From: a virus
Length of the DNA stretch: 64,000 nt
Reading direction: 5' to 3' (one strand)
IMG/VR virus record: IMGVR_UViG_3300020473_000010
Coordinates: 224,698 to 288,697 of that record
Made by a program: the position numbers and the translations under genes. Below the pieces are notes generated by a model, which saw nothing but the letters and a program-made list of their open reading frames with translations, was not told where the DNA came from and did not search any database. The number at the start of each line of letters is the position of its first letter. The first letter of the stretch is position 1. Below are positions 9,091-33,997 of the stretch, in pieces.

Positions 9091-9099
9091 TTTTAAAAA

Positions 9100-12489: not shown

Positions 12490-12775
12490 CTATTTGGTTC
12501 TCCTCGTTTTCTATTTTTGCAATTTCGTTTGCGACTCTGAGAATTGAATCTCTTGAATCCTTAATGTCATTTATAACTTGCCTAATTTGTGGAGAATCAT
12601 AAAATATTGGGATTTCTAAAATTTTTGATACACTAGAATAGCGATCATCTAGAATATCTAAACTTGTTTCTAATGAATCTGTAATTTTTAATATTATATT
12701 TGCAAATTTATAATTATAATATAACGAAACTATTAACGCTATAGAAATTATCGCTAATAACCAATTTATTATCAT
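12476..12775 (-). CDS. Small single-pass membrane protein with coiled coil
   Basis: 99 residues. The N-terminus is one clear transmembrane helix (WLLAIISIALIVSLYYNY, residues 5-22), followed by a charged helical region (SLETSLDILDDRYSSVSKIL and later SRDSILRVANEIAKIENEE) that looks like a cytoplasmic coiled coil. Overlaps both neighbours by a few bases, so it is translated with them. No family recognised. Confidence 0.7.
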   Translation of the reverse strand: MIINWLLAIISIALIVSLYYNYKFANIILKITDSLETSLDILDDRYSSVSKILEIPIFYDSPQIRQVINDIKDSRDSILRVANEIAKIENEENQIDERP

Positions 12776-13923
12776 GTATGATCTCTTAAAAATTTATCGT
12801 ATAATTCTGATATAGCTTCCTGGGAATATTTTTGCCTTATTACTTTTCCTAATTTACTAGACCAGGTTTCCGGGATGGATGTTCCTTTTTTATAAAATTT
12901 ATAAATCCTTTCGGATAAATGCCTAAAATCAATCTCTGCCCAAGAGGAACCTTGGATCCAGATATTGTTATCAACTCTTGAATCTGGTATATTTTTTAAA
13001 TTATATGAAACGGACAACCATTTACCTTTGTTTAAAAACTCGCAATGAGCTGACCAGTTAGTCGCAATAACTGGCAAATTACAAGCTGCGGCTTCTAGCA
13101 TGGGGAGACCAAACCCTTCTCCTCTTGTACCGGAAAGTAATGCTTTAACTTTTTTGTTTTTATATAATCCCGAGATTTCACTCTCCGATAAGGCACCGTG
13201 AATTAAATATACTTTTGGATATTGACCGTCTCTTACTTGGTTAATTAAATTAGATAAATTTCTTCTAGTAATCCTCCTATCAATGGCGCAATTTCTTCCG
13301 GAATTTGTTTTTATTATTAAACCAACTTCTTTGTTGTCTTTAAAAGTATTACAGAAAGTTGCTATTGTATTATACGTATTTTTCCTGTCATCTTCCTGAG
13401 ATCCAGTTAATTGTCCTAAAAGTAAAAAATTAAAATCTGTTTTAATTTCCGGCATAGAAAAATCATTATCGTTTAAGCACTCTGAAATAAAACTTTCCGG
13501 AATAACTGAAATATTTTCAGATTCGGCACCTGAATTAACTAATACTTTTTTCGAAAATTCAGATGGAACGATAACATGATCCATGTTTTTGCAATTTTCT
13601 ATCCATCCTGGATTGCATTTTGTTGCTTCTACTACAGCCGTGACTCCAAAATTCCGCTCTGCAAGATTAGGATCCCACTCATTTGGTAGTTGGATTTGAA
13701 AAGAAATATTTGGTTTAATAATTGGAGGAGCTGATCTTTCCATTATTTCTCCAATTAGGCCATTTAGGTCATCCGGGTTGCAATACCACGGAGTAATTCC
13801 CCATGGGGTAACTGAAACTGAAATCAAATATTTTTTTTCTAATGCCCATTTAAAAATCTGTCTGGCATGTACACCATAGCCAGACTGAGTTAAAAGCGGG
13901 CCTCGGATATGAATATGTTTCAT
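12772..13923 (-). CDS. Glycosyltransferase, GT4/GT-B fold
   Basis: 383 residues. The C-terminal domain carries the GT4 signature: LSESEISGLYKNKKVKALLS, then TRGEGFGLPMLEAAACNLPV with the catalytic-site E-x7-E spacing, and IATNWSAHCEFLN. The N-terminus has a glycine-rich acceptor-site loop (LLTQSGYGVHARQ). GT4 enzymes transfer sugars from nucleotide donors with retention. Donor and acceptor cannot be told from sequence. First gene of the glycan island, overlapping the small membrane protein by 4 bases and adjoining another GT4 gene. Confidence 0.88.
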   Translation of the reverse strand: MKHIHIRGPLLTQSGYGVHARQIFKWALEKKYLISVSVTPWGITPWYCNPDDLNGLIGEIMERSAPPIIKPNISFQIQLPNEWDPNLAERNFGVTAVVEATKCNPGWIENCKNMDHVIVPSEFSKKVLVNSGAESENISVIPESFISECLNDNDFSMPEIKTDFNFLLLGQLTGSQEDDRKNTYNTIATFCNTFKDNKEVGLIIKTNSGRNCAIDRRITRRNLSNLINQVRDGQYPKVYLIHGALSESEISGLYKNKKVKALLSGTRGEGFGLPMLEAAACNLPVIATNWSAHCEFLNKGKWLSVSYNLKNIPDSRVDNNIWIQGSSWAEIDFRHLSERIYKFYKKGTSIPETWSSKLGKVIRQKYSQEAISELYDKFLRDHT

Positions 13924-15176
13924 TATATTTCCTCTATTGAGATACGCTTATATTTAGTTTTCCAAGATTCCAAAGTTTCTAACATGGTATTATGCCATGC
14001 ATCAACTGTGTTTTGGTGGTTAAATTCAGATTCAACATAATTTTTTGCCTTTTGACCTAAGGCTTTTCGGCCTTCGGCGCCCAGTTTATACATATCCCAA
14101 ATTTTTTCGCTAATGGTTTCAACCGATGTATAATCTTCATAAATGTATGGAACATTTTGAGAACCAACTAAAGTTTTTAGTTCTATTGGAAGAGCAAAAC
14201 CATTTTCAGTATTATCTCTATGGTCAATAACCTGCCTTGTTTGTCCTCCAGTTTTTGGTGCGATTATGGGAGTTCCTACTTGCATAGCTTCCAATGTGGA
14301 TAAACCGAACCCTTCTGCGTAACTTATATTAATTGTAAAATCAGCAATATTATGCAATGTATTAACTACATCGAAACCTATTCTTTTATTGGAGAACACA
14401 ACATTGTCAATTAACCCAAGCATTTCTATCATAGAAAACAAATTTGGGCCTTCTTTATCTAATGGGTCAGTATGCATTAATAAAGTGGCGTTTTTGTGAC
14501 CTTCTTCTTTTTCTAATCTTTCTAGAAAGATCTTCCAAGCCCACAATAAATCGCCCGGGCGCTTTCTTCTTGCGTTTCTATTGATCCAAAACCCTAAAAA
14601 ATGATCTTTGCGATCGGGTCCTAGAATATTTAATTTTTCTGTTTTAATTTTATCTTCTGATAATTGGAAAAATGTTTTGCCAGGAAGGCTATGGGGAATA
14701 AATTTTGTTTTTTCTGGGTAGTGTTTTACTACTTGTTCGTATGTATGGTAAGAATGACAATTAATTAGGTCTACAGAATCATAGTAACCATTATTAAATT
14801 CCGGGTAAGGGGCATTATCCCAAACATGCCAATATACGATTGGACATATTTGATGGATTTCATCTTCCATTTCAAAAATATGAATATAAAATCTTGGATC
14901 AGTGAAAAGGAAAATGATATCTGGTTTTTCTGTTGCTAAAACAACACGAATCATTTCTCTTGTTCCAAATCCATCAATTGGCTTTATAATAAAATCATCA
15001 TTTACTTTTGCGACGGTATAGTCGTCATGCTTCATAGCGGCGCCAAGTTGGCGCACTGTCCAACAGCCTTTTTCAATTAAACCGTTTATTAAATGTCTAG
15101 ACTGTACTCCAACACCGCTGGTGCTTAGAGCGTGGTCGGAAATCATCACAATCTTCTTTTTACCATCCGTTTCCAC
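13923..15176 (-). CDS. Glycosyltransferase, GT4/GT-B fold
   Basis: 417 residues. N-terminal acceptor-domain loop ALSTSGVGVQSRHLINGL; C-terminal donor domain with AEGFGLSTLEAMQVGTPIIA, the two glutamates of the GT4 E-x7-E motif, and PKTGGQTRQVID. Its paralogue immediately downstream shares the same order of motifs, so the pair probably arose by duplication and acts sequentially. The start overlaps the end of the nuclease gene by 17 bases. Confidence 0.88.
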   Translation of the reverse strand: METDGKKKIVMISDHALSTSGVGVQSRHLINGLIEKGCWTVRQLGAAMKHDDYTVAKVNDDFIIKPIDGFGTREMIRVVLATEKPDIIFLFTDPRFYIHIFEMEDEIHQICPIVYWHVWDNAPYPEFNNGYYDSVDLINCHSYHTYEQVVKHYPEKTKFIPHSLPGKTFFQLSEDKIKTEKLNILGPDRKDHFLGFWINRNARRKRPGDLLWAWKIFLERLEKEEGHKNATLLMHTDPLDKEGPNLFSMIEMLGLIDNVVFSNKRIGFDVVNTLHNIADFTINISYAEGFGLSTLEAMQVGTPIIAPKTGGQTRQVIDHRDNTENGFALPIELKTLVGSQNVPYIYEDYTSVETISEKIWDMYKLGAEGRKALGQKAKNYVESEFNHQNTVDAWHNTMLETLESWKTKYKRISIEEI

Positions 15177-16023
15177 TACAATGCTCCGTATTTTTAAATG
15201 AACAGAATTTACAACTGTTATAATTTTTTAAAGTAAATCCCTTTTTTACGTTTTTAATCATGCTTTCAACTAATTTGTCGGTTTTTTCAAGAAATTTTGG
15301 CCCAGTAGAAACTTTAAAGATTTCACATGTAGAACCTAAAGGAGCTCCGCGTTTTAAGAAAACGAAAGCTGTTTTGATATCTTTTAAGTCAACCTGAGAT
15401 TTTTCAGACCAATATTTTTTGTAGAGCCCAACCTGAGCCAAGGATGAAAATTCTTTTTTCTTTTGATAATACCATCCATTTTTACCGGTAGTTTTCCAAT
15501 CTAAAATCCAAAAGTTTACTTTGTTTGAAGTTTTGGATTTTGGCGTCATTATAACGCAATCTATAAATCCTTTAAATTTTAAATCGAAATTATTTATAGG
15601 CTGATATAAATCGTCTTCTGCTTTTAAAATTTCCCAACCTGGAAATGTTTCATCCATGAACTTTGGAAAGTCTGATAAAATATTTTTAGAAGATTGGATC
15701 CAATCATTTAAATACTCGTGGGTATATTTAGATCCAATTGTAGCTCTTGATTCTGTAATTTTCTTAATATATTCGTGTGAATCGTATTGTTTAAGTTGCC
15801 ACCTTTGAGTAATTTTTTTTCCTACATTTTCAATTGAAATATCATTTCCGTTTAAATATTTCTCTATTTCTTCATGGATGATTGTTCCAAAATCAGCGTA
15901 TGGATTATCTTCATATGTTTCTATTTTGTCAACATACATTAGCTTATGCCTATATGAACACTCTTTCCAGGCTTTTAGTTCGGAATAAGATATATGCGGT
16001 TTACCGGTTGGAAAATTACTCAT
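15160..16023 (-). CDS. PD-(D/E)XK nuclease, RecB/Cas4-like with Fe-S cysteines
   Basis: 287 residues. Motifs of the PDDEXK_1 family are in order: SYSELKAWKECSYRHKLMYV near the N-terminus, FGTIIHEEIEKYL (motif with His), KGFIDCVIM (catalytic Asp) and WILDWKTTG (D-x-K). One cysteine near residue 17 and three near the C-terminus (CKFCSFKNTEHC) match the four-cysteine Fe-S arrangement of AddB/Cas4 nucleases. Such enzymes are 5'-3' or 3'-5' exonucleases; T4-like marine phages often have one for recombination or repair. It is the only DNA-metabolism gene inside the glycan island. Confidence 0.83.
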   Translation of the reverse strand: MSNFPTGKPHISYSELKAWKECSYRHKLMYVDKIETYEDNPYADFGTIIHEEIEKYLNGNDISIENVGKKITQRWQLKQYDSHEYIKKITESRATIGSKYTHEYLNDWIQSSKNILSDFPKFMDETFPGWEILKAEDDLYQPINNFDLKFKGFIDCVIMTPKSKTSNKVNFWILDWKTTGKNGWYYQKKKEFSSLAQVGLYKKYWSEKSQVDLKDIKTAFVFLKRGAPLGSTCEIFKVSTGPKFLEKTDKLVESMIKNVKKGFTLKNYNSCKFCSFKNTEHCSGNGW

Positions 16024-16069
16024 TTTTTGTATACCTCTCTAAATAAAGATACTCCTAAGTTTAAAGAAG

Positions 16070-17092
16070 TTAAATTTCGTTTTTTGTATAGACAGAAGGA
16101 TCAATATTATGGTATTTTCCTCTGGCAATTTTGGTTTGAATATCTAGATCGCTTTGATACATGTCTTTAACCAAATCTTTAATATCGTATTTTGGATACC
16201 ATTTTAATTTAGTTTTGGCTTTTTCAGGATTACCTAAAAGCAAAGGGACTTCATGAGGCCTAAATAGTCTTTTATCTTGCTTTACATATTTTTCAATTGA
16301 TAAGCCAGCGTGTTGGAAAACTAATTCTAAAAATGTTTTCACAGAATAGGTTTTTCCAGTTGCTAAAACATAATCATCCGGGGTATCTTGCTGAAGCATT
16401 AACCACATTCCCTGAACATAATCTTGAGCATGACCCCAATCCCGTTTTGCTTCGAGGTTTCCTAGATACAATTCTTTTTGAAGCCCTAGTTTTATTCTTG
16501 CTGCTGCAATAGTGATCTTTCTAGTTACAAATGTTTCTCCGCGGCGGGGCGACTCATGATTAAACAAGATTCCGGAACAAGCAAAAAGATTATATGCTTC
16601 TCGATAATGCCTAATCATATTATGGCAAAATAGCTTTGCACATGCGTAAGGAGATGCCGGCATAAATTTTGTATTTTCATCTTGTGGGTATACAGGGTTG
16701 TCACCATACATTTCTGAGCTTGAAGCTTGATAAAATTTAGCTTTTGGACAACAGATTCTCCAAGCTTCAAGTAATTTTAGTGTTCCCATAGCAATAGAAT
16801 CTACAGTTTCAACAGGGACTTCAAAACTAACCCTAACATGGCTTTGTGCTGCTAAGTTATATATTTCATCTGGTTTATATTTTAAAAGAAGTCGATGCAT
16901 CCAAGTAGAATCATGCATAGAACCATAATGTAAAATAAAATTAGAATCCTCAAATAGTCTATCGATTCGATCAGTTGAAATAATGCTTGTTCTTCGCTTT
17001 ATTCCTATAACTTTGTATCCTTTAGAAATTAGCAAATCTGCTAAATAACTTCCGTCTTGACCAGTGATCCCTGTAATTAATGCTGTTTTCAT
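16070..17092 (-). CDS. gmd: GDP-mannose 4,6-dehydratase
   Basis: 340 residues, the usual length. Converts GDP-D-mannose to GDP-4-keto-6-deoxy-D-mannose using bound NADP. The sequence starts with the Rossmann loop ITGITGQDGSYLADLL, has the RRTS segment, catalytic SSSEMYG and YACAKLF (Y-x3-K), and the family NHESPRRGETFVTRKIT signature. Product would feed both the ColD-like dehydratase upstream and the GDP-fucose synthase at 19083. A 75-base gap separates it from the dehydratase gene. Confidence 0.95.
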   Translation of the reverse strand: MKTALITGITGQDGSYLADLLISKGYKVIGIKRRTSIISTDRIDRLFEDSNFILHYGSMHDSTWMHRLLLKYKPDEIYNLAAQSHVRVSFEVPVETVDSIAMGTLKLLEAWRICCPKAKFYQASSSEMYGDNPVYPQDENTKFMPASPYACAKLFCHNMIRHYREAYNLFACSGILFNHESPRRGETFVTRKITIAAARIKLGLQKELYLGNLEAKRDWGHAQDYVQGMWLMLQQDTPDDYVLATGKTYSVKTFLELVFQHAGLSIEKYVKQDKRLFRPHEVPLLLGNPEKAKTKLKWYPKYDIKDLVKDMYQSDLDIQTKIARGKYHNIDPSVYTKNEI

Positions 17093-17167
17093 ATTTTATT
17101 TGTAGTGAAAGGTTTGTTGAAGTTTTGCCAATTCTAATTTTATCTAGTCTATACCATTTGTACAAGA

Positions 17168-18316
17168 TTATAAAATATCTAAAATTGCTTGACATATGAA
17201 TTTAATGTCCGAAGGCTTAAGTTTTTGATGACAAGGAAGGTAAAGTCCAAAATCATGAACCTTATCAGCATTAGGCAGGCTACTGAAAGAACCATATTTT
17301 TCTATCCAAAATGGATGGCGAGCTATAGATCCGCAAATTAAAGGTCGGCATTCAACATTTAATCGATTTAGTTCTTTGACAATTTGCTCTTTCTTTTTAT
17401 GTATTAGGCCGAACGCCAAAGGGGATGGATTACAACCGGTTGATTTCTGGGTCCACACGTGGTTATCTAGATAGTCTTGGTATATTTTTAGGTTTTCTCT
17501 TCTTTTTTCAATATTTTTCGAAAGGTTATTTAATTGACGGATGCCTAAAAATGCATTTAAATCTGTTGACCTTATATTAAAACCCGGTTTGATAAAGAAG
17601 TATAAAGAATTAAAATCATCTATGTTGTATTTCTCCGCATATTGTTTCTGAGAATTTGGGTCTAAATCACGTACCCAGCCATGAGAACGTAATATTAGGC
17701 ACAAATCTCTAATTTCGGGATCATTTGTACATACCATTCCACCTTCAATAGTTGACATATGATGCCCATAATAATAACTAAAGGAAGACATTAATCCATA
17801 TGTACCTACTTTTTGATCCTGATAGGTGGCACCATGGGCTTCACAACAGTCCTCTAGCAGTATTACATTGTTATCTTTACAAATCTCGAGAATGGCTGAC
17901 ATATTGTTGGCCCATCCTAAAACATGAACCAATATCACAGCTGCCGGACGATGTTCTTGGACTAGAGAAGAAAAATGGTGAATATTTAATCCCAAATCAT
18001 TAGGGTCACAATCGCAAAGTATAGGTTCGTATCCAAGCTGAATAAAAGGTGCAACAGTTGTTGCCCAACTTACGGCTGGTACTATTATTTTTTTATTCTT
18101 TAACCTCCCGGATTCAAGCAAGGCTGAAGCCATTAATAAATTAGCGCTGGAACCGGAATTAACAAAACAAGAATATAAAACGTTTTGCCATTGCGACCAA
18201 TTTTTTTCAAATTCTTGAGTAAGATGTCCTTTAGTCAGTTTCGGATCTTGGTATAGCCACTCTATTAATGCCATTCGGTCTTTTGTGCCAATTGTATCAT
18301 CAACTAGTTTTATCAT
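17168..18316 (-). CDS. PLP-dependent sugar 3-dehydratase, ColD-like (DegT family)
   Basis: 382 residues from the ATG at 18316, which overlaps the GT11 stop (ATGA); an upstream in-frame start would run into that gene. DegT/DnrJ/EryC1 fold: SAVSW near the cofactor, LLEDCCEAHGATYQ, then FSYYYGHHMSTIEGGMV. Aminotransferases of this fold have Lys at the second His of 'GHH'; His there is the mark of the 3-dehydratases ColD and DdhC, which remove the C3 hydroxyl instead of transaminating. With Gmd next door the likely substrate is GDP-4-keto-6-deoxymannose, giving a 3,6-dideoxy sugar such as colitose after reduction. The His reading is seen; the substrate is inference. Confidence 0.82.
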   Translation of the reverse strand: MIKLVDDTIGTKDRMALIEWLYQDPKLTKGHLTQEFEKNWSQWQNVLYSCFVNSGSSANLLMASALLESGRLKNKKIIVPAVSWATTVAPFIQLGYEPILCDCDPNDLGLNIHHFSSLVQEHRPAAVILVHVLGWANNMSAILEICKDNNVILLEDCCEAHGATYQDQKVGTYGLMSSFSYYYGHHMSTIEGGMVCTNDPEIRDLCLILRSHGWVRDLDPNSQKQYAEKYNIDDFNSLYFFIKPGFNIRSTDLNAFLGIRQLNNLSKNIEKRRENLKIYQDYLDNHVWTQKSTGCNPSPLAFGLIHKKKEQIVKELNRLNVECRPLICGSIARHPFWIEKYGSFSSLPNADKVHDFGLYLPCHQKLKPSDIKFICQAILDIL

Positions 18317-19086
18317 ACTCTCTCCCATCGGTCCGGAATTACATCTTGATCTGGTGTATCGTTTGCAAACCAAATTTTTGGAGCTATAATTTTACTATTA
18401 GATTCCTCTCCAAGCCAAGCTGCCCACCAAGAAAAAGACGAATTAGCAATGATTTTGTTTTTAAACGAAGTCATGAAATAAAGATCTAAAACATCACTAA
18501 TAGAATTCATATATAAGTGGTTATTCCCAAAATGCTCTCGGCACCATTGGACATCATCGCTAAAAAACACAAATTTAGCATTATTGAATTTCCGCATCGC
18601 CAAATCGTAATAATTCGAATCTTCAGCTAAATTTTTATGTATGTCAGCCAATTTAATATAGTCGCCTCTTCTAACATGAACAGCAACCATATTTTCTTCG
18701 AGTTGAAAATTTCCATAGTAATAATTTAATTGCGATTTTACCCAATTAGTGGGGGCAAATAAATTTTTTATTTTTTCAGCATTATGAGCAAAATGTTTTT
18801 CAGATTGAAAGTATCCTTGTAAAAACATATTTTCGGAATATGGAATTTTGTGATAGTTAAAATTGGGTTCAATATATAGTTTTCTTGCCCAACTTAATTC
18901 ATTCATATATTTTATTTTTGAAAATACAGATGAAGCATATAATGTTCTTTCTTCATGAGAAGGACATGCTCCAATGACATTCAAGGGAAACACTGCTATA
19001 TCGGCATTGTCGATTGCTAAAGATTCTACAGTAGCAATAATAAACATTTGATTACCTAACCGACCTCTTATTTCCGCAGATATCAT
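18313..19086 (-). CDS. Alpha-1,2-fucosyltransferase, GT11
   Basis: 257 residues from the ATG at 19086, which overlaps the upstream stop (ATGA). All three GT11 motifs are present: IRGRLGNQMF at the N-terminus, VAVHVRRGDY (the HxRRxD motif that binds GDP-fucose) near residue 135, and NSSFSWWAAWLG near the C-terminus. Family enzymes transfer L-fucose from GDP-fucose to galactose-type acceptors. It lies between the ColD-like dehydratase and the GDP-fucose synthase, which would supply its donor. Confidence 0.92.
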   Translation of the reverse strand: MISAEIRGRLGNQMFIIATVESLAIDNADIAVFPLNVIGACPSHEERTLYASSVFSKIKYMNELSWARKLYIEPNFNYHKIPYSENMFLQGYFQSEKHFAHNAEKIKNLFAPTNWVKSQLNYYYGNFQLEENMVAVHVRRGDYIKLADIHKNLAEDSNYYDLAMRKFNNAKFVFFSDDVQWCREHFGNNHLYMNSISDVLDLYFMTSFKNKIIANSSFSWWAAWLGEESNSKIIAPKIWFANDTPDQDVIPDRWERV

Positions 19087-20012
19087 AAGATACCCCTTAT
19101 GTGGGGGTAACTTTCTATAAACCATTCACATGTTTTTTCAAGACCAGAACGTAAATTAGTATAGGATTTATTATATCCTAATTTTTTTAAAGCTTGAGTT
19201 GATGAGGGCTTTCGGTGCTGGCCTATAGGTTTTGTTGTATCCCAAAAAATCATACCTGGGGGGAACTCAAATATTTCGCAGATTATACTTGCTACGTGTT
19301 TAATTGAATATTCAACACAGTTTCCTATATTGATCGGAAGGGAACCATCATAATTTTCTAAAAGCCAGATTAGTGTTTCAGCAATATCAAGAGAATATGT
19401 AAATTCCCTTAAAGATGAACCATCCCCCCATAAATTTACAATAGAATTATTTTGTTTTCCTTCCCATATTTTCCTTATCAAGGCTGGAATAACATGGCCA
19501 TTTTCTAAGTGAAAATTGTCATTAAACCCATATATGTTATTTGGCACAGCTGTAATATATTTCAACCCGTATTGGCTCCGTAACGCGCGAGAATGAACTT
19601 CTAGCATACGTTTAGCATAAGCATACCCATAGTTGCTTTGGTGAGGTTCTCCGTTGTGTATCTGGTCTTCTGTAAGCGGGTATTTTACTTTGTCTGGATA
19701 TATACATGTTGACAATAAAGAGACGACTTTTTGAATACCTTCTTCTTTTGCGGCATTTAATAAATTTGTATTAATTAAAATATTTTCATGGAAAAAATCA
19801 GCTATGTAATCAGAATTTCCTTTAACGCCACCAACTTTAGCAGCTAAATGGATAACAGCATCCGGATTGTGGTCTACAAACATTTTGTGGGCATAATATA
19901 GTTTTGTTAAGTCATATTCACTTGATCCAACTAAAACTAAATTGTGGGATGTATTTAAATTTCGAAAAGCAGAACCTACCATCCCAGTTCCACCAGTAAT
20001 TAATATTTTCAT
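19083..20012 (-). CDS. GDP-L-fucose synthase (epimerase/reductase)
   Basis: 309 residues. Bifunctional 3,5-epimerase/4-reductase acting on GDP-4-keto-6-deoxymannose. Rossmann start MKILITGGTGMVGSAFRN; AAKVGGVKGN; catalytic STCIYPD with its Cys; and HNGEPHQSNYGYAYAKRM containing Y-x3-K, all typical of WcaG/Fcl/TSTA3 proteins. ColC, which makes GDP-colitose, is a close relative, and a ColD-like gene is two genes away, so the enzyme could act on either intermediate. Confidence 0.92.
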   Translation of the reverse strand: MKILITGGTGMVGSAFRNLNTSHNLVLVGSSEYDLTKLYYAHKMFVDHNPDAVIHLAAKVGGVKGNSDYIADFFHENILINTNLLNAAKEEGIQKVVSLLSTCIYPDKVKYPLTEDQIHNGEPHQSNYGYAYAKRMLEVHSRALRSQYGLKYITAVPNNIYGFNDNFHLENGHVIPALIRKIWEGKQNNSIVNLWGDGSSLREFTYSLDIAETLIWLLENYDGSLPINIGNCVEYSIKHVASIICEIFEFPPGMIFWDTTKPIGQHRKPSSTQALKKLGYNKSYTNLRSGLEKTCEWFIESYPHIRGIL

Positions 20013-20014
20013 TT

Positions 20015-21989: not shown

Positions 21990-21992
21990 AAT

Positions 21993-26484: not shown

Positions 26485-27212
26485 AATTCTTCCTGGTTTG
26501 TCGAAGTGTTCCTCCTGTAACAATAAAGTTTTTCAGCTAATATCGATGTTCTGGAAGTTAAAGCTGTTACTCTGTAATTAAAATCTGAATCTTCTGATAA
26601 TAATGTTCTTAAGCCGAGATTTGGAGGATGAAACCTAATTCCGTGGATCCATATTGTTTGATAAAACATTGCTGATGTTCCAGCTGTTTCAAAATTACCG
26701 GTATAAAAATGGTTTATTCCTGGTAACTGAAAACCTCGAGTTACTGTTTTGGTAACTTCTGGGCATCCGATTAATTTTAATCCATCGTTGACGTCGAGCG
26801 TAAGATCTTTATATTTTTTGACATGACTTTCCTCAAAACAGTGATAAAACCCGCATAGATTATTTACCGCTTTTGATTCAACTAATGCTAAATATTGAGC
26901 CTGAATTCTCTGTTTGAGAGATACATCATCAGCGTCGTGACTTGTACAGATAGTAGCATCAGTAGTACGAATTGCTTCATTCAGACACCACCATTTCCCT
27001 TTGTTCTCGTTGTTTATGTGGTACCTAATTCTTGTATCAGAGAAGCCTTCTAGTATATCTTTAAACTCTTCTAAGTTATCTGACCCATCATCTACCACAC
27101 AAATATCTAAGTTGTCATAGGATTGATTCTGGATTGATTCTATTGACTCTTTAAGATATTGATTATGATTGTAATTGCATATTGTTACTAAAATCTTGTT
27201 TGGTGTTTCCAT
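26481..27212 (-). CDS. Glycosyltransferase, GT2/GT-A fold
   Basis: 243 residues. N-terminal ILVTICNYNHNQYLKESIES and ICVVDDGSDNLEEFKD, then ICTSHDADDVSLKQRIQAQY with the D-x-D-type metal site, are classic GT2. The start lies inside the end of the large upstream gene (50-base overlap), but a later start would remove the first beta strand of the fold, so the long overlap is real. Substrate unknown. Confidence 0.88.
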   Translation of the reverse strand: METPNKILVTICNYNHNQYLKESIESIQNQSYDNLDICVVDDGSDNLEEFKDILEGFSDTRIRYHINNENKGKWWCLNEAIRTTDATICTSHDADDVSLKQRIQAQYLALVESKAVNNLCGFYHCFEESHVKKYKDLTLDVNDGLKLIGCPEVTKTVTRGFQLPGINHFYTGNFETAGTSAMFYQTIWIHGIRFHPPNLGLRTLLSEDSDFNYRVTALTSRTSILAEKLYCYRRNTSTNQEEL

Positions 27213-29130
27213 TCATTACCTCAGGTTGTTTTTTATTAATTTTTAAATGTGGAGTTGGGTTATCAAAATCAACCTTGGAATGGAAAACCCATCCACCCAT
27301 TTGTTCTGCCAATTGTTTTGATAAAGAAGCAATATCCGAATCTGTTACTTCAGACCATTTTTTATCAAAAAACATATTATTTTCTGCCGTGTCTTCTTGT
27401 TTGATATTGTACAAACTTTCCCAATGGTTTTGCCAAAAATCTCGATAGGTTTTGATTTTTCTTTCAATGTTTAACCAACTATAATGGAAAACTGTTGGCA
27501 TAGCATCAACTACCTGGTTAAACCAGAGCTGATATTGTTCTTGGGCACTTTTATTTCCTTGAAGCGCTACTATTCTGGCATTATGGACTTCTTGGGTATA
27601 AAACGAAGCATGAGCTTGAGGTTCTAATGTTTCTTTATGGATATAATCACATCCATCGGTACCCAATTTGGAATAATATGAATCACCATCTTCTACTCTC
27701 AGTTTGCCTGGCACACCGTGGGTTAGATCTTTATTGTTTCTACTAAGTCTCCATTTCCATGGATTAATATCCATTCGAACTTTTTCTAAACTTCCCCAAT
27801 ATTCAACTACCGGTAATGATATGATATCAACAAATTTTGGAAATTGTCGGCAGAGTTTAGATACTTTTTCATAATGGTCTTCGTGTACAATTTCATCACT
27901 ATCCATTTGCCAACAGAAATCTAAAGTACATTTATCTCGAGCTCGAGCTTTTTGAAGGCCGTCTTCGAGCGCGCTTCTGGTTGCTGTCCAATCAACTTTG
28001 TGCTGATAAACTTTTATAACTGGGTTGGATTTAGACATTTCCTGAAGTAGTTCATATGTTCCGTCAGTAGATCCACCGTCCATTACCACAACTTCACTAC
28101 AGAAACCCAACATTGAAGTTATCGATTGGACAAATGGGTAATCTTGAGAAATACAATTATAAGTTGTTGTATATCCAGAAACCCTTGCTTCCCACGACAT
28201 GTCGTTTAGCGTCTGTTGCCAAAATGTTTCTCTTCTCCCGTAAAGATATATTTCTACATCCTCTAAAATTCCTCCTGTAAACGGAAACTCTTTGTGGTGC
28301 TGGACATTACTATTTAATTCTAGTTCACATCCTAATAATTGAGCCTCTAAAACGATTCTGGGACATGTATCAAAGCCACGTGGAAAGAATACAAGGCCTT
28401 CTGCAGAAGCTAATTTTTGAAGAGTTTCAGCATGGGATAACCCCTGGACTACTTCATATTCTTTATTATTTTCTTCGCACCATTTGATCGCTTCTTCAGT
28501 TCCTTTAATCCAGCTTTCTGAACCAACAACAATCCATTTTTTGGTTTTTGGAATATTTTTTAATAGTTTAATTCCGGCAAAGAATTTATCATCGAAAACT
28601 GAACTTAAAACTATTTGGCTGGATCCAGTAGATTGCTCATGAAGAGGATCTAAAAACGGGAAGCGCTCATGGTAAATAGCCATTTGCCCTTCTGACATAT
28701 AAAAAACCGATTGAGCTCCACAGAAGAAAGCTGAAACCATTTTCCCTGTTAGTTGTTCATGGCAGTCGCAATCTTTTTGTTCTGCTGATTTATGTTTTGC
28801 CATGCTGCGATATTTACAAAACTTATAATCATATTCTAAAATTGAATATCTTAAATTAGCAATAATTGAAGGAATTAATTCTGAATTCATAGTAACCGCG
28901 TTACCAAAAACCCAGTATTTATTAGCTCCAGATTCTAAAGTTTTCATAGAAATATTTTTTGCATTTATTCTAAAAACTGATACATCTTGAGGTGCTGATT
29001 CATAAATAGCTTGGGTTGTTAATTCTGCGCCGCCGATATATTGCTCTACAAACATGTCGGCAACAAAAACAACATCACAGTCTCTTGGGATTAAAATTTC
29101 GTTTTCGTTTTCCTCAAATGGGCTTTTCAT
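27163..29130 (-). CDS. Two-domain glycosyltransferase, GT4-like plus GT2
   Basis: 655 residues. Residues about 20-310 form a GT-B-like domain with LASAEGLVFFPRGFDTCPRI and VLEAQLLGCELELNS, the GT4 donor-site segment. Residues about 330-560 are GT2: GYTTTYNCISQDYPFVQSIT, EVVVMDGGSTDGTYELLQ and FCWQMDSDEIVHEDHYEKV. A cysteine- and lysine-rich stretch around residues 105-125 (CKYRSMAKHK, CDCHEQ) may bind metal. It is the first gene of the leftward glycan operon, with a ribosome-binding site (ATAGGAGAT) upstream and a divergent gene 113 bases away. Confidence 0.86.
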   Translation of the reverse strand: MKSPFEENENEILIPRDCDVVFVADMFVEQYIGGAELTTQAIYESAPQDVSVFRINAKNISMKTLESGANKYWVFGNAVTMNSELIPSIIANLRYSILEYDYKFCKYRSMAKHKSAEQKDCDCHEQLTGKMVSAFFCGAQSVFYMSEGQMAIYHERFPFLDPLHEQSTGSSQIVLSSVFDDKFFAGIKLLKNIPKTKKWIVVGSESWIKGTEEAIKWCEENNKEYEVVQGLSHAETLQKLASAEGLVFFPRGFDTCPRIVLEAQLLGCELELNSNVQHHKEFPFTGGILEDVEIYLYGRRETFWQQTLNDMSWEARVSGYTTTYNCISQDYPFVQSITSMLGFCSEVVVMDGGSTDGTYELLQEMSKSNPVIKVYQHKVDWTATRSALEDGLQKARARDKCTLDFCWQMDSDEIVHEDHYEKVSKLCRQFPKFVDIISLPVVEYWGSLEKVRMDINPWKWRLSRNNKDLTHGVPGKLRVEDGDSYYSKLGTDGCDYIHKETLEPQAHASFYTQEVHNARIVALQGNKSAQEQYQLWFNQVVDAMPTVFHYSWLNIERKIKTYRDFWQNHWESLYNIKQEDTAENNMFFDKKWSEVTDSDIASLSKQLAEQMGGWVFHSKVDFDNPTPHLKINKKQPEVMNGNTKQDFSNNMQLQS

Positions 29131-29243
29131 ATTGTATCTCCTATTACAAGAATAAAATAACCTCTATGAGCAGCAGTGTAAAATATTTACCTAAATTATA
29201 GTATGGAATATATTTATTTATAAACCATCTCTGGAATTTGAAT
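29131..29243. promoter_or_regulatory. Divergent promoter region of the glycan island
   Basis: This gap separates the leftward glycan operon from the rightward one. On the minus strand TATAAT occurs in CATACTATAATTTAGG, about 60 bases before the leftward ATG, a candidate sigma-70 -10 box. The minus strand also reads TATAAATA at 29215-29222, the only exact T4-type late motif I found upstream of a gene. The plus strand reads ATATTTAT at 29210-29217, 26 bases before the rightward ATG. The AT-rich stretch can therefore serve either direction. Confidence 0.45.
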
Positions 29244-29963
29244 ATGAAGATTGCGATAGTAACTCTCGGTGATGAAAATGTCTATGACTGGAATAAGATA
29301 TCGTTTCCTAATAAATTAAAGTATTGTAATATTCATGGATATGACTTCATCACTCGAGATAGACTTCTAGATCAGCGGCCGGCTGGGTGGTCGAAAATAG
29401 TTTTGATTCTAGAATATTTAAATAAATATGATTATATTTTTTGGTCTGACACTGATAGTCTTGTGGTTGATCCGGAGAGAAAACTGGAAGATCTAATTGA
29501 TAAAAGTAAAGATATTATTTTCTGCATGACCGGCGTTAAAGGTTCTTACTGGACTTTAAGCAGTGGTCAATTCTTTGTGAAGAATACGGATTGGTCAAGA
29601 AAATTTCTGGAAACTGTATATAATCAGACGTTTTTAGTTAATTCTGGAGATGGAAGCGATAATAAAGCAAAAACAGAAGAAGACGAAATGAAAAGACAAA
29701 ATTGCGGATGTGATGGTTGTAAGTGGTTTAAATATGACCAGAAAGGATTTATCCACGTAACAAACAAGATGGACAAAGAAGAAAAGAAACGCCATATTGG
29801 CTTTTATGAACCGAGCGATTCCCGATATTTTAATAGCTACGGGGAAAACCTAAAAGAGCAATGCTTCATACGGCATTTTCCTGGAAGATATAAAAATTTT
29901 GATGAATTTCGAAATGTCTCAAAAACCGCACTTCAAAGATTGGAAAATTATGTTAAATATTAA
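29244..29963 (+). CDS. Glycosyltransferase, GT34/GMA12-MNN10-like
   Basis: 239 residues from the ATG at 29244 (a TTG two codons earlier is less likely). MKIAIVTLGDENVYDWNKIS, NKYDYIFWSDTDSLVVDPE with its D-x-D, and TLSSGQFFVKNTDWSRKFLE are the successive motifs of the galactosyl/mannosyl transferase GMA12/MNN10 family, best known from fungi and plants. A Cys-rich loop (QNCGCDGCKWF) near residue 155 is unusual. First gene of the rightward glycan block. Confidence 0.8.
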   Translation: MKIAIVTLGDENVYDWNKISFPNKLKYCNIHGYDFITRDRLLDQRPAGWSKIVLILEYLNKYDYIFWSDTDSLVVDPERKLEDLIDKSKDIIFCMTGVKGSYWTLSSGQFFVKNTDWSRKFLETVYNQTFLVNSGDGSDNKAKTEEDEMKRQNCGCDGCKWFKYDQKGFIHVTNKMDKEEKKRHIGFYEPSDSRYFNSYGENLKEQCFIRHFPGRYKNFDEFRNVSKTALQRLENYVKY

Positions 29964-30885
29964 TTCAGATTCACATCCGGAACTTTACCTAGATATAAAT
30001 GAAAGCTTAAAATATTTGAACGCTTTGAATTATGATGATTTTAATTATCCAGAAGAAACTACAATTTTCCATACATATTCCGAAATTAAAAATGTATATG
30101 AGCTTCAATGTATAAGATCGTTTTTAGCTACTCAGAATTTAGAAAAAACAAAATTGATTCTATGGTCTGATTATGATATTTCAAACAATTGTTTAATAGA
30201 TCCCTATAAAGATTATATTGATATGAGGATTTATAATCCTTTTGAGGTTGCACAAGATACAATATTAGAAAATAATCATGATATCCTTGCTGCAAAAGAT
30301 GAAAGACACTGGCTGCAAAGTGATCTTTTAAGATTGGTCGCTCTTCATAAATTTGGAGGAATATGGATTGATATGGACATTGTTCTCTTAAGAGATTTTA
30401 AACCAATCATGGATCAGGAATTTCTTTATTCAAATTTTGCCACAATAGACCACGAAAAAGAGGGGATGTGGGGAACAATAATGGGGCTTAAGCAAAAATC
30501 TAATTTATCTTTGCTTTTCTTAGAAGAGTTAATAAAAATCTCACCGGAGGAAAACACAAAATGTTGGGGACTGAATTTATTTAAAAAAGTATATCAGGAT
30601 AATAAATTTAACGTACTTCCGGCGATGTTTTTTAATCCTGAATATGGAGTTTTAGGATGGCCAAATGTAAGCGTTAAAAACAAAAACTACATATCGGGTA
30701 TTATAGATGGATGGTTTTTTGATAATGTTGTTATTAATTCCTTATATACCGGTACATTTTCTTGGCATTGGCATAACTCCACTGGAAGAACTAAGAAAAA
30801 ACCAAAAACGATACAAGAGGGATCAAAATTTTGGCAGATGGACCAAATTATAGAATCAAAACTAATAGAGAGAGGAATATTATGA
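29950..30885 (+). CDS. Glycosyltransferase, GT32-like (DXD sugar-binding)
   Basis: 311 residues from the ATG at 29950, giving a 14-base overlap with the preceding gene; an earlier ATG exists but lies deep in that gene. TIFHTYSEIKNVYELQCIRS opens the fold, and HWLQSDLLRLVALHKFGGIW then IDMDIVLLRDFKPIM is the Gly_transf_sug/Och1-type D-x-D motif. The C-terminal FSWHWHNSTGR segment resembles the histidine-rich acceptor motif of the family. Sugar unknown. Confidence 0.85.
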   Translation: MLNINSDSHPELYLDINESLKYLNALNYDDFNYPEETTIFHTYSEIKNVYELQCIRSFLATQNLEKTKLILWSDYDISNNCLIDPYKDYIDMRIYNPFEVAQDTILENNHDILAAKDERHWLQSDLLRLVALHKFGGIWIDMDIVLLRDFKPIMDQEFLYSNFATIDHEKEGMWGTIMGLKQKSNLSLLFLEELIKISPEENTKCWGLNLFKKVYQDNKFNVLPAMFFNPEYGVLGWPNVSVKNKNYISGIIDGWFFDNVVINSLYTGTFSWHWHNSTGRTKKKPKTIQEGSKFWQMDQIIESKLIERGIL

Positions 30886-31781
30886 GATTTTATATGTATG
30901 ATTTTGGGGATTTAAACGTATACATAAAATGGGATTATGATCGATTTTTCTATAAACGTTGGTGTGAAGAGAGTTTTAATGCCCTGCATAGACACCCGTA
31001 CAGGGTTGATGATCCAGAGGAAGCTGATTTTTTCATCGTTACACAGACGTTACGTTCTGTTCCGTTTGCTGGATTTAGCTGGAGAGCTTATTTAGATGGT
31101 TTCTTAAGAGGTCAAAAGTTCTGGAATCAAGGGAAACCTCATGTTTTTTTTGATATTAAAGATTCACCTAGACCGATCATAGAGGATCCTAGAGCCATTG
31201 TTTGCAAAACGGCTTTTCATGAAGATTTTTTTAACCCAAAACTACACATACCAATTCCACAATTTCCCAGAGAAAGGTTTGAAGAAGAGATTATACCGGT
31301 TGGCGAAAGAAAGCATTTAGTTGGTTTTAAGGGTCATCCTAGAACAGAATGGACCGATCTAAGATCTAGATTATTTAAACTCAACGATGGGAAAGATATT
31401 ATAATTGTACCCGGGATATATTCCAAAGATACAATAGAAGAGCATAATAATATCTTACGTAATTCAAAATTTGCTTTGTTGCCTCGAGCTAACGGATATG
31501 CTTTATCATATAGAATGATTGAATGCATGAACCTTGGGTGTATACCAGTAATAATTTCCGATGGACATGTTCTTCCATTTCAATCAGAAATTGATTATAA
31601 TTCTTTTTCTGTTCGAATTAAAGAAAATAAAATTAACAATTTAGAAGAAATGCTTAGAAATCGAGAAGATCTTGAAATTTTACAAAGGAAATCTTACGGA
31701 GCTTATTTAAAATATTTTTCTTCTACAGAAACGATTATTAATCATTCGCTAAATTTGATAGAGAAGATGGAATGGGCTTAG
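30882..31781 (+). CDS. Exostosin-like glycosyltransferase (GT47-type)
   Basis: 299 residues from the ATG at 30882, with ribosome-binding site GAGAGAGGA and an ATGA overlap with the upstream stop. MRFYMYDFGDLNVYIKW and EEADFFIVTQTLRSV are the N-terminal exostosin strands; NSKFALLPRANGYALSYRMI and ECMNLGCIPVIISDGHVLPF are the donor-binding C-terminus. Homologous to the gene at 25546 on the other strand, although the two are clearly diverged. Confidence 0.86.
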   Translation: MRFYMYDFGDLNVYIKWDYDRFFYKRWCEESFNALHRHPYRVDDPEEADFFIVTQTLRSVPFAGFSWRAYLDGFLRGQKFWNQGKPHVFFDIKDSPRPIIEDPRAIVCKTAFHEDFFNPKLHIPIPQFPRERFEEEIIPVGERKHLVGFKGHPRTEWTDLRSRLFKLNDGKDIIIVPGIYSKDTIEEHNNILRNSKFALLPRANGYALSYRMIECMNLGCIPVIISDGHVLPFQSEIDYNSFSVRIKENKINNLEEMLRNREDLEILQRKSYGAYLKYFSSTETIINHSLNLIEKMEWA

Positions 31782-32467
31782 AAACAATATATGGCATTAT
31801 GATAACCGGGAAGACCCCGGAGCGTATTCTAATGGCAAATCTTTCAGCCCAAAGCTTTTTTAAACAAACATATAGCAATAAGCATTTGCTAATAATTGAT
31901 GATGGTGATTTTGATTTCAATTTCTCTAACAGTGTTGCAACACATCTAAAAGTTTCCAATGGGCTAACACTTGGAGAACTACGAAATATAGCATTGGACT
32001 ATCTTCCAGTTAATTCTGTCTGGGTTCAATGGGACGATGATGATTGGCATCATCCTAACGTAATCTCGGAGCAATATGAAGAACTTTCTAGGGCAAATGT
32101 TCCTTGTTGTTTTATGAAAAGCCAAATCCGTTATTCATTTAACAAAAATTGTGCCTGGATTTTTGGAGAAAATTTAAATTCTGAATACCGGGGCATTTGT
32201 GGTACCGGAATGTTTCGAAATAGCGAAATTCGATATCCGGCACTTGAAAAGTCTGAAGACAGTGTTTTTTCTAGGTATTATGAAAATAATGATATATTGT
32301 GGGATAATCCTCCGCATTATTATCTAAGATTTATTCACAACAATAATACATGGGATGAGGATCATTTTCTGTGTAGTAGAATGGAAAAAAACACCTGGGA
32401 TATTAATGGATATTCCCGGGAATATTTAGAAAAAATACTAGATTTATACAAGAGTTCAAAGTGTTAA
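31772..32467 (+). CDS. Glycosyltransferase, GT2/GT-A fold
   Basis: 231 residues. YGIMITGKTPERILMANLSA, LLIIDDGDFDFNF and NSVWVQWDDDDWHHPNVISE give a compact GT2 domain with an acidic D-D-D-D metal site. The N-terminal strand is less canonical than in its neighbours. Overlaps both adjacent genes by a few bases. Confidence 0.8.
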   Translation: MGLETIYGIMITGKTPERILMANLSAQSFFKQTYSNKHLLIIDDGDFDFNFSNSVATHLKVSNGLTLGELRNIALDYLPVNSVWVQWDDDDWHHPNVISEQYEELSRANVPCCFMKSQIRYSFNKNCAWIFGENLNSEYRGICGTGMFRNSEIRYPALEKSEDSVFSRYYENNDILWDNPPHYYLRFIHNNNTWDEDHFLCSRMEKNTWDINGYSREYLEKILDLYKSSKC

Positions 32468-33252
32468 ATATAGTCATTACAGGATATAACTCTGTCAAAT
32501 GGCTTCAAAAATGCCTTGAGTCAGTATCAAACCAAAAATATAAAGATTTTTCTTGCATTGTTATTAATGATGCTTCAACTGACTTGGGTTTTGAAGAAGT
32601 TGCATTATCTTATTGTAATTTGCATGGCTGGAGATATATAAAGAATACTAAAAGATCTGGCCCTTTATTTTCAAGAATAAAAGGGATAGAATTTTTAAAC
32701 CTTGATGATAATGATATCATCTTTTTAATAGATGGAGATGATTGGCTATTGCATGAAAATGTTTTCCAGTATATACTTGATATATACAACGTTAACGACA
32801 TATATCTTACGTGGGGATATTGGAAACCGATTGATACCTCTGGGAGACAGGCGAACCGAGAAAGAACTCTTGATGATGTTTATATCCCTAGAATGAAATA
32901 CATTGATGAAAACAGGGATCAACTTTTTATAGAAAATTCCTATCGAGGAGCTCCTTTTTCATTTGCTCATCCCAGAACGTTTAAGTATATTTTATGGAAA
33001 AATATTGATCGATCTGATTTTTTTGACCAAAATGGAACAATGTTCTTGTCCGCTACTGATTATGCCTTCATGTATCCAATGCTGGAAATGTGTGGTGATA
33101 AATTTAAAATAATCTATGAAAGATTAATTGCATATAATTTGCATGACGAAAATATAGTCATGATATCAAAAGAAGATAGAAAGCAAAACAGAATATGGTG
33201 TAATGAGATCAAAAGAAAAAGAAAATATTTGCCAATTATTTTAGATAGCTAA
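32461..33252 (+). CDS. Glycosyltransferase, GT2/GT-A fold
   Basis: 263 residues with a GTG start. NIVITGYNSVKWLQKCLESV, CIVINDASTD and IIFLIDGDDWLLHENVFQYI are the GT2 motifs with the D-G-D-D site. The middle and C-terminus (TDYAFMYPMLEMCGDKFKII) match the same region of the GT2-FkbM fusion at 24183 (GWDVAFMLPMLEMSRERTLF), so the two are paralogues; this one lacks the methyltransferase. Confidence 0.88.
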   Translation: MLNIVITGYNSVKWLQKCLESVSNQKYKDFSCIVINDASTDLGFEEVALSYCNLHGWRYIKNTKRSGPLFSRIKGIEFLNLDDNDIIFLIDGDDWLLHENVFQYILDIYNVNDIYLTWGYWKPIDTSGRQANRERTLDDVYIPRMKYIDENRDQLFIENSYRGAPFSFAHPRTFKYILWKNIDRSDFFDQNGTMFLSATDYAFMYPMLEMCGDKFKIIYERLIAYNLHDENIVMISKEDRKQNRIWCNEIKRKRKYLPIILDS

Positions 33253-33268
33253 TTAGGAGAGAACAGTA

Positions 33269-33997
33269 ATGGGGAAAGAAAATAAAAAAATTTTTATAAT
33301 AGGTTTTAATAAATGTGGAACAAGAACGTTATCTAAATATTTTGAAAGCCAAGGTTTAGGCACTTATCATATAGGAAGAGATTGGTATCCGTTTAGTTGT
33401 CAACTAACAGATAATATGGCAAATAGAAAAAAAATATTAGATTCATATGAACATGATGTTTATGCAGATCATGCTTTTTTAGTAAGATACTATAAAAGAC
33501 TGGACAAAGATTATCCTGGAAGTTTATTTATTCTTAACACTAGAGATGTTGATGATTGGCTTATCAGCAGATTAAATCACCATTGGTGCACAATGGTTCC
33601 CGCATATAATGTACGTACTGGTCACAGAAACCTGAATTGGAAACAGTGGGTTGCTGATTGGCGAGTACAGTGGGCAGAGCACCATAAAGATGTTAAAAAG
33701 TTTTTTTCGAATAGGCCGAGTGACTTATTAATTTTTAATATCAATAATGATGACGTACAAAAGATTATTGATTTCTGTTTACCGGATTATAATTTTAATG
33801 AATCGGGGTGGGGCCACTCCGGAGAAACGCTGAAGCGACAGGAGCTTTATTTTTCAAAAATAAATGGGGAAATAGTTAATATCAAGAAACCACCTGAGCG
33901 AGCTCGTCCGTTTGATCCATGGCATATTGAGCTAAAGATGGTAACAACCAGTATTTCTACTAAACATATGATAACTGATCCAAAAGAAGAATTATAA
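33269..33997 (+). CDS. Sulfotransferase family protein
   Basis: 242 residues, good ribosome-binding site TTAGGAGAG. The N-terminal IFIIGFNKCGTRTLSKYFES is a PAPS-type phosphate loop (G-x-x-K-x-G-T-x-x-L) and FILNTRDVDDWLISRLNHH is the second substrate motif (R-D-x-x-D-W). The overall form fits the sulfotransferase_4-like group. It closes the rightward glycan block and faces the tail-fibre gene tail-to-tail. Probably adds sulfate to the same glycan as the enzyme at 21993. Confidence 0.8.
   Translation: MGKENKKIFIIGFNKCGTRTLSKYFESQGLGTYHIGRDWYPFSCQLTDNMANRKKILDSYEHDVYADHAFLVRYYKRLDKDYPGSLFILNTRDVDDWLISRLNHHWCTMVPAYNVRTGHRNLNWKQWVADWRVQWAEHHKDVKKFFSNRPSDLLIFNINNDDVQKIIDFCLPDYNFNESGWGHSGETLKRQELYFSKINGEIVNIKKPPERARPFDPWHIELKMVTTSISTKHMITDPKEEL

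Follow-up and report, generated by a model that had tools for sequence, protein, structure and literature searches.

Cyanophages P-SSM2 and S-SSM7 carry sugar-gene clusters of the lipopolysaccharide (LPS)/capsule type (PMC3037559, PMC7824862), and moraphages, aquatic jumbo phages of up to 307 kb, share four core orthogroups of putative glycosyltransferases and possess variable islands, the content of which is left for later work in the sections cited (PMC12619734). Chloroviruses glycosylate their virions autonomously, using mostly soluble transferases that build a conserved core with virus-specific decorations (PMC9614988), and in algal viruses, capsid genes flank a hypervariable region (PMC12906663). 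In this study, we describe a glycan gene island at positions 12772 to 33997 of a 64,000-nucleotide stretch of DNA (the window), which forms the final 64 kb of the 288,697-base virus record IMGVR_UViG_3300020473_000010. The island consists of a conserved frame of glycosyltransferase (GT) and nuclease genes around an exchangeable cassette of sugar genes. We assign a probability of roughly 0.5 to the reading that its enzymes assemble, in the cytoplasm, a strain-specific glycan on virion proteins.

Conserved frame and exchangeable cassettes

The frame comprises a bifunctional glycosyltransferase gene, referred to here as the anchor, as well as a nuclease gene and two GT4 genes. These genes and the landmarks around them are located in the window as follows:

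7261-9615, minus strand: baseplate wedge genes, downstream landmark; gp6-like at 7261-9090 and gp25-like at 9100-9615 (PHROGs 219 and 43)
11764-12489, minus strand: sigma-factor-like gene, downstream landmark (PHROG 234, E 9e-4, weak)
12772-13923, minus strand: frame gene, GT4 glycosyltransferase (PF00534, E 2e-11)
13923-15176, minus strand: frame gene, inner GT4 glycosyltransferase (PF00534, E 1e-12)
15160-16023, minus strand: frame gene, PD-(D/E)XK nuclease (PF12705, E 3e-19)
27163-29130, minus strand: frame gene, bifunctional GT4-GT2 anchor with a GT-B-like half and a GT2 half (PF00535, E 4e-10; model with a predicted local distance difference test [pLDDT] score of 89)
34056-39185, minus strand: fibre-like open reading frame (ORF) of 1709 amino acids (aa), candidate acceptor (three collagen-like Gly-X-Y stretches; tblastn relatives in 18 loci)
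39823-41145, minus strand: PhoH-like gene, upstream landmark (PHROG 2765, E 6.7e-89)

An initial annotation of the window had placed the island between baseplate and tail fibre, which agrees with the gp25- and gp6-like genes on one side and the 1709-aa ORF on the other. Pfam and PHROG searches with this ORF returned no match, and its sequence suggests a fibre.

When window proteins were mapped onto 127 loci (13 of them in the window's own record), the same gene order recurred: anchor, variable genes, nuclease, GT4, GT4, a 99-aa ORF, the sigma-like gene, a 118-aa ORF, a 496-aa ORF, gp25, and gp6. Relatives of the anchor in viral contigs, with the best 80 of 85 matches retained, correspond to 78 distinct loci; a tblastn search of 50,697 phage records with the anchor was negative. 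The related islands that the initial annotation had proposed looking for in other phage contigs were found, and they share a frame with exchangeable cassettes that it had missed, along with the lack of export genes discussed below.

The inner GT4 gene was searched for in 48 records, representing 47 of the 59 loci with this first arrangement plus locus L049, and was present in 39; in all 39, the order and strand of the anchor and inner GT4 were those of the window. The gap between the two genes ranges from 8,975 to 28,890 nt over these contigs (11,987 nt in the window). Thirty-five of the 39 contigs are distinct, the other four (G012, G027, G028, and G034) being likely duplicates by their equal gaps. 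The other nine records, in which the inner GT4 was not found, are contigs 17 to 71 kb long. Nine further loci show the frame, and seven of these are empty or nearly so: the anchor-nuclease distance, which is approximate as it was read from tblastn starts, is ∼50 nt in L088, L091, and L105, ∼0.2 kb in L093, L094, and L098, and ∼0.8 kb in L092, compared with ∼6 kb in L077 and ∼5 kb in L081. Inspection of L084, L089, and L108 covered the locus itself.

The content of the cassettes was compared across the 35 contigs, leaving out the four likely duplicates. Seven cassettes were joined from two pieces, and three were slightly trimmed. Mechanical calling gave 792 ORFs, which start with M by rule and take in the ends of flanking genes; only 6 run opposite to the direction of the frame. 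Grouped together with the window's 32 proteins, these ORFs fall into 410 clusters; 295 are singletons, of which 21 come from the window alone. For 630 pairs from 36 contigs, the median fraction of shared cassette genes was 0.09. Close relatives excepted (mean sharing is 66% in the five pairs with an anchor identity of at least 70%), cassette content does not track anchor kinship. G006 and G015, with anchors 72% identical, share one gene of 19 and 15, while G016 and G040, with anchors 63% identical, share 21 genes of 28 and 29. The best partner of the window is G025 (9 of 13 genes shared; anchor identity, 53%), and L074 and L171 hold a large part of the same genes at ∼38 to 73% identity. Since different sugar-gene sets occupy the same spot in dozens of relatives, the sequences suggest that related phages swap the sugar structure made at the same site.

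A family scan of 296 of the 362 cluster representatives, limited to the top 25 families per scan, listed among others glycosyltransferases, epimerases, methyltransferases, NeuB, cytidylyltransferases, GT29 sialyltransferases, DegT, and radical S-adenosylmethionine (SAM) proteins. The NeuB, cytidylyltransferase, and GT29 sialyltransferase-like proteins, which occur in other cassettes than that of the window, suggest phage-encoded nonulosonic acid glycans.

Upstream of the anchor, 33 loci chosen for having upstream sequence were compared, two of them contigs filed under metagenome-assembled genomes (MAGs). PhoH lies upstream in 27 of these loci. In 21, a co-directional ORF of ∼400 aa or more, which may be a fibre, lies between PhoH and the anchor, and the locus is continuous with this block on one side and with the baseplate genes on the other. 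The six genes of the window's plus-strand block at 29238-33997 (GT34, GT32, GT47, GT2, GT2, and sulfotransferase) had no homologue upstream of the anchor in any of the 33 loci; this block lies between the anchor and the fibre-like ORF, on the opposite strand from both.

These comparisons also bear on a concern raised in the initial annotation, that a host capsule locus had been joined to the contig by misassembly. For the minus-strand part of the island, this explanation is rejected: the baseplate-side junction recurs in dozens of contigs, and the genes are phage-encoded. The plus-strand block does not share this support. The record carries terminase, portal, and DnaB-type helicase genes, and the window itself carries PhoH and the gp25- and gp6-like baseplate genes. 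Two MAG-filed contigs, L171 (NHDW01000006.1, 305,838 bases, filed under a Methylococcaceae MAG) and L172 (PBIO01000006.1), carry the anchor and cassette genes; these could be phage contigs that were binned together with cellular DNA, and they do not count as evidence of a host.

Other features were noted in the record. It contains a tmRNA gene (piece L002:3-355, minus strand; predicted tag ANNNYFYDSERLAA), three tRNA genes in piece L005, and a strong AGGAGAA signal upstream of genes, which is at odds with the usual picture of Bacteroidota, the predicted hosts of moraphages. The motif CATA[ACT]TTA[AT] often stands ∼27 to 33 nt before the starts of large ORFs and is a possible late promoter; it has 21 matches in 134 upstream gaps and a strand bias of 41 to 10 over the whole record.

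Island enzymes, sugar supply, and export

The cassette and the plus-strand block contain the following genes:

16070-17092, minus strand: GDP-mannose 4,6-dehydratase (GMD), cassette (TIGR01472, 454.7 bits, above cutoff)
17168-18373, minus strand: ColD-type 3-dehydratase, cassette (ColD/WbdK 2gms, E 1.8e-62; histidine replaces the pyridoxal phosphate lysine)
18313-19125, minus strand: GT11 fucosyl/colitosyltransferase-like, cassette (PF01531, E 8e-27)
19083-20012, minus strand: GDP-L-fucose synthase/ColC-like epimerase-reductase, cassette (solved GDP-L-fucose synthases, E 1e-77; below the NCBIfam equivalog cutoff)
20015-20674, minus strand: FkbM methyltransferase, cassette (PF05050, E 7e-14)
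20653-21315, minus strand: short DegT-like protein of 220 aa with the usual lysine motif, cassette (PF01041, E 6e-22)
21315-21989, minus strand: 2-oxoglutarate (2OG)-Fe(II) oxygenase-like, cassette (TIGR04324, E 2.4e-7, 30.6 bits against a cutoff of 150; HxD...H pattern)
21993-22706, minus strand: sulfotransferase, cassette (PF00685, E 2.5e-15)
22707-23354, minus strand: SAM-methyltransferase-like, tentative, cassette (no Pfam match; low-confidence model, pLDDT 63, resembling SAM methyltransferases)
23299-24186, minus strand: GT10 fucosyl/colitosyltransferase-like, cassette (PF00852, E 6.9e-10)
24183-25559, minus strand: GT2-FkbM methyltransferase fusion, cassette (PF00535, E 1e-22; PF05050, E 6.6e-8, at the C terminus)
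25546-26523, minus strand: GT47-like protein, weak, cassette (PF24785/PF03016, below cutoff)
26481-27212, minus strand: GT2 glycosyltransferase, cassette (PF00535, E 5.6e-21)
29238-29963, plus strand: GT34-like glycosyltransferase (PF05637, E 4e-15)
29899-30885, plus strand: GT32-like glycosyltransferase (PF04488, E 7e-9)
30831-31781, plus strand: GT47 (exostosin-like) glycosyltransferase (PF03016, E 8.9e-30; PDB Exostosin-1, E 7e-15)
31772-32467, plus strand: GT2-like glycosyltransferase, weak (PF00535, E 7e-4, below cutoff)
32461-33252, plus strand: GT2 glycosyltransferase (PF00535, E 5.5e-17)
33269-33997, plus strand: sulfotransferase (PF17784, E 3.8e-9, above cutoff)

By Pfam, 13 glycosyltransferase ORFs lie within 12772-33252: two GT4, five GT2 (counting the GT2 half of the fusion 27163-29130), GT10, GT11, GT32-like, GT34, and two GT47. 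Eleven of these exceed the Pfam cutoff (the exceptions being 25546-26523 and 31772-32467). The families that the initial annotation listed, for approximately eleven genes, are confirmed, some of them weakly. The same annotation was correct on the GDP-mannose dehydratase and on both sulfotransferases, all of which pass their cutoffs. Its GDP-fucose synthase agrees with the solved enzymes but misses the equivalog cutoff; two of its three FkbM/methyltransferase-like proteins have FkbM domains above the Pfam cutoff, while the third (22707-23354) has only the low-confidence model; and its 2OG oxygenase-like protein is weakly supported, with the HxD...H pattern present. The nuclease, the ColD-type enzyme, and the DegT-like protein had been missed or misread. 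Active-site motifs were found in the island enzymes, except for one of the two sought in the sulfotransferase 21993-22706. This sulfotransferase had no match among the phage records, and the GT47 matches there were two, both of one phage. The 2OG oxygenase-like, short DegT-like, and SAM-methyltransferase-like genes (20653-21989 and 22707-23354) are neighbours again in L131:9694-11617 and L154:3074-5050 and may form a module.

The N-terminal half of the anchor has no Pfam GT match. In the predicted model, the secondary structure fits two glycosyltransferase domains, with the second GT-like domain at this N-terminal half. The best structural matches of the model are SunS and ThuS, at low TM-scores of ∼0.25 on the query, with RmlT, TarP, and TarS close behind; SunS and ThuS are peptide glycosyltransferases. 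PDB searches with GT11 and with an anchor profile gave no result.

The initial annotation called the island fucose centred. Enzymes for a decorated deoxyhexose glycan are present, but fucose is not the only candidate, as the ColD-type enzyme points to colitose as well. The product of ColD is GDP-4-keto-3,6-dideoxymannose, from which colitose is possible beside fucose. In 17168-18373, a histidine occupies the position at which two deposited ColD variants carry Asn or Lys, and it is kept in the relatives from G001, G025, and L049. The ColD query by itself identified a single viral locus; the 78 phage records that it matched are of the DegT family at <60% identity and are only putative as ColD. 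The reductase 19083-20012 falls in a clade whose members come mostly from cassettes lacking ColD, and either Fcl or ColC would fit, so fucose, colitose, or both are possible. In comparison with the colitose pathway of Escherichia coli O-antigens (gmd, ColD, and ColC), the island has GMD and a ColD-type enzyme with the catalytic histidine but differs in the clade of its reductase. A profile search of the window's record did not detect NTP_transferase PF00483, the family of GDP-mannose pyrophosphorylase; GDP-mannose is therefore probably supplied by the host.

Genes for exporting a polysaccharide were not detected. In 36 records, neither the flippase profile PF01943 nor PF02397, that of the lipid-linked initiating transferase, had a match; of 14 control genomes, 13 and 9 were positive. 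A hydropathy screen identified one cassette ORF of 792 with at least four hydrophobic segments, a 138-aa protein; the same screen counted 9 and 9 segments in K-12 flippases, 6 and 8 in polymerases, and 5 in WcaJ. The components of a Wzx/Wzy O-antigen or capsule locus were not found, no profile search for the polymerase or for ABC transporters having been made. For lack of such genes, a newly built, exported polysaccharide is unlikely, and the new host capsule that the initial annotation would have allowed is unlikely with it. What remains is a cytoplasmic acceptor: a virion protein, a host lipid-linked glycan before its export, or DNA. The virion and the host surface were also the acceptors considered in the initial annotation, and both are upheld as candidates.

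Candidate acceptors of the glycan

The locus lies among virion genes that all run on one strand, which favours a virion acceptor. The resemblance of the anchor to the peptide glycosyltransferases SunS and ThuS, low in TM-score and closely followed by RmlT, TarP, and TarS, points the same way, as does the parallel with the chlorovirus system. We infer a single joint pathway in which the island acts as a swappable "serotype" locus of the phage, a conserved frame around an exchangeable cassette. The three frame glycosyltransferases would assemble a short glycan core on an acceptor in the cytoplasm, and the cassette enzymes would extend and cap this core. Host GDP-mannose would be converted to GDP-L-fucose and/or GDP-L-colitose and transferred by the GT10 and GT11 enzymes; the GT2, GT32, GT34, and GT47 enzymes would add further sugars, and the glycan would then be methylated, sulfated, and perhaps oxidised. 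The acceptor would most likely be a virion protein, perhaps the neighbouring fibre, the collagen-like stretches of which are a possible glycosylation substrate. Particles carrying a strain-specific glycan might then be altered in adsorption or shielded. Soluble transferases, conserved core genes, and variable decorating genes, as expected of a virion glycosylation system, are all present.

Several observations weigh against a virion glycan. The acceptor is a candidate, inferred and not identified as a particular protein. A second contig group of 19 loci (within L106 to L127) has another arrangement of the frame: it opens with the nuclease and the two GT4 genes, next comes a gene resembling the first half of the anchor, and then a GT2 or different sugar genes follow. 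The related nuclease-GT4-GT4 genes of the isolates immuto and Mel-JY01 stand away from baseplate genes. Upstream, PhoH directly adjoins the anchor with no large ORF between them in L066, L090, and L095; the upstream block is on the opposite strand in L064, L072, and L085; and phmmer finds relatives of the fibre-like ORF of the window in only 6 of the 33 loci. The late-promoter-like motif does not occur directly before the island operons in the window, where the two minus-strand matches, at 29430 and 29736, sit within plus-strand genes. Finally, a T4-type dCMP hydroxymethylase gene in the record (118643-119524, minus strand) leaves DNA open as an acceptor.

Among the alternatives, remodelling of the host surface survives best, though we regard it as unlikely. 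According to this explanation, existing lipid-linked core glycans of the host would be extended or capped at the cytoplasmic side of the membrane and then exported by host machinery, and the changed surface would block rival phages. The family mix is typical of surface glycans (GT10, GT11, NeuB, cytidylyltransferases, and GT29 sialyltransferases included), the cyanophage clusters have been published as LPS modifying and superinfection blocking in the parts cited (PMC7824862, PMC3037559), and the immuto locus follows lysis genes instead of adjoining baseplate genes. No flippase of its own is necessary if host export is used; however, with no flippase or initiating transferase in the 36 records and no multipass protein of their size among the 792 ORFs, such a system would depend wholly on a compatible host glycan, and its location within a run of virion genes also argues against it.

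Hypermodification of DNA, which we consider improbable, although the hydroxymethylase makes it an alternative to be taken seriously, would have the frame transferases glycosylate 5-hydroxymethylcytosine, with cassettes varying the sugar against restriction and the nuclease perhaps attacking unmodified DNA. A precedent for such hypermodification is said to be provided by a 2024 study by Pyle, and the PD-(D/E)XK nuclease is a fixed member of the frame. The best PDB match of the hydroxymethylase is the T4 enzyme (E 9e-21, versus 3e-6 for the best thymidylate synthase), and the Cys and Asp that differ in deposited variants are conserved, which suggests hydroxymethylcytosine in the DNA of the phage; dUTPase-like and sugar-epimerase-like ORFs were read by eye near this gene. 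Relatives of it occur in G025 and G002, hydroxymethylase and synthase types not being distinguished. These are the matches in 2 of 50 records and in 2 of 4 other frame-bearing contigs of >250 kb, the remaining records being fragments of <200 kb. Against a DNA acceptor, the frame-bearing G010 (257 kb) and G017 (322 kb) have no hydroxymethylase match. Immuto has the nuclease-GT4-GT4 genes with a normal-type thymidylate synthase, 7-deazaguanine genes, and no tblastn hydroxymethylase match, and Mel-JY01 has ThyX and no such match in positions 20,000 to 190,001 of its genome. The frame is therefore independent of dCMP hydroxymethylase, other routes to hydroxymethylated bases lying outside this search. 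Moreover, a glycan needing a dozen transferases would seem hard to package if carried on many cytosines.

Very improbably, the genes could serve a small glycoconjugate that is secreted or stays inside the cell, or they could be "stuffer" DNA, gained passively and sharing no joint pathway: stuffer DNA has been proposed for cyanophage clusters in the part cited (PMC3037559) and the content is very mixed, with its 295 singletons among 410 clusters, but the motifs are intact, the frame is conserved, and L074 and L171 repeat much of the gene set of the window.

Comparison with described systems

If virions do carry these glycans, a swappable sugar locus could matter as much as fibre protein sequence for host range, shielding, and phage competition. 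The variable islands left open by the moraphage study would gain content for at least one kind, the cassettes would provide sugar enzymes in naturally matched sets (colitose, sulfated, and sialylated), and phages with full and empty cassettes would allow a clean comparison. More tentatively, a marine jumbo phage lineage may have true "serotypes," in which strains exchange whole glycan cassettes at a fixed locus between fibre-like and baseplate genes and the virion coat is diversified like bacterial O-antigens, using soluble enzymes only and host GDP-mannose; this coat would contain fucose or colitose and sialic-acid-like sugars and would be methylated and sulfated.

Among described phages, moraphages resemble the window's record in PhoH, gp25, gp6, terminase, and portal, all of which are widespread in that group and present here, and which are common to many T4-like phages. 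The frame here has three GT genes; moraphages have four core GT orthogroups, for which the sections cited give no location (PMC12619734). Table 2 of that paper gives 24 for lysine-tRNA ligase, yet its section 13 reports no tRNA synthetases; PF00152 was not found in the one record searched, that of the window, which may be incomplete. Flavobacterium phage vB_FspM_immuto and Microcystis phage Mel-JY01 carry a PD-(D/E)XK nuclease gene with two GT4-like and further sugar genes shortly after it. They differ in that the anchor has no match there, the loci lie apart from the baseplate genes, and identity is low, at 23 to 32% for the frame genes. In immuto (NC_055915, 48008-59988), a cultivated phage, the sugar cassette includes a relative of the short DegT-like protein (44%).

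The initial annotation considered such genes rare in phages and saw novelty in the scale of the island. The first claim is wrong, given the 15-gene cluster of P-SSM2 (PMC7824862), and the second is not supported. Like the island, the cyanophage clusters, as described in the parts cited, combine many epimerases and glycosyltransferases in T4-like phages of >200 kb, some near phoH, and are polymorphic between relatives; many sugar-nucleotide and GT genes likewise stand together here. Unlike them, the cassette here is enclosed by conserved frame genes, with PhoH on one side and baseplate genes on the other, and the frame genes are not shared: the inner GT4 matches nine phage records, none of them a Synechococcus or Prochlorococcus phage, and the anchor matches none.

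Mycobacteriophages are reportedly glycosylated on capsid and tail tube, according to a 2023 report by Freeman (cited in PMC12619734), and resemble the virion reading in that phage virion proteins bear the glycans; they use fewer transferases and are not known to have a sugar-nucleotide cassette. Chloroviruses differ in having a proven glycoprotein and a eukaryotic host, in the parts cited, whereas the acceptor here is a candidate. No title describing the frame was found in the open-licence literature searched. Within that literature, novelty lies in the conserved frame and its occurrence in both empty and full form, in the exchange measured between cassettes, in the lack of export genes, and in the ColD-type enzyme; large phage sugar clusters were already known, and what sets this locus apart from them is a fixed frame with exchangeable cassettes.

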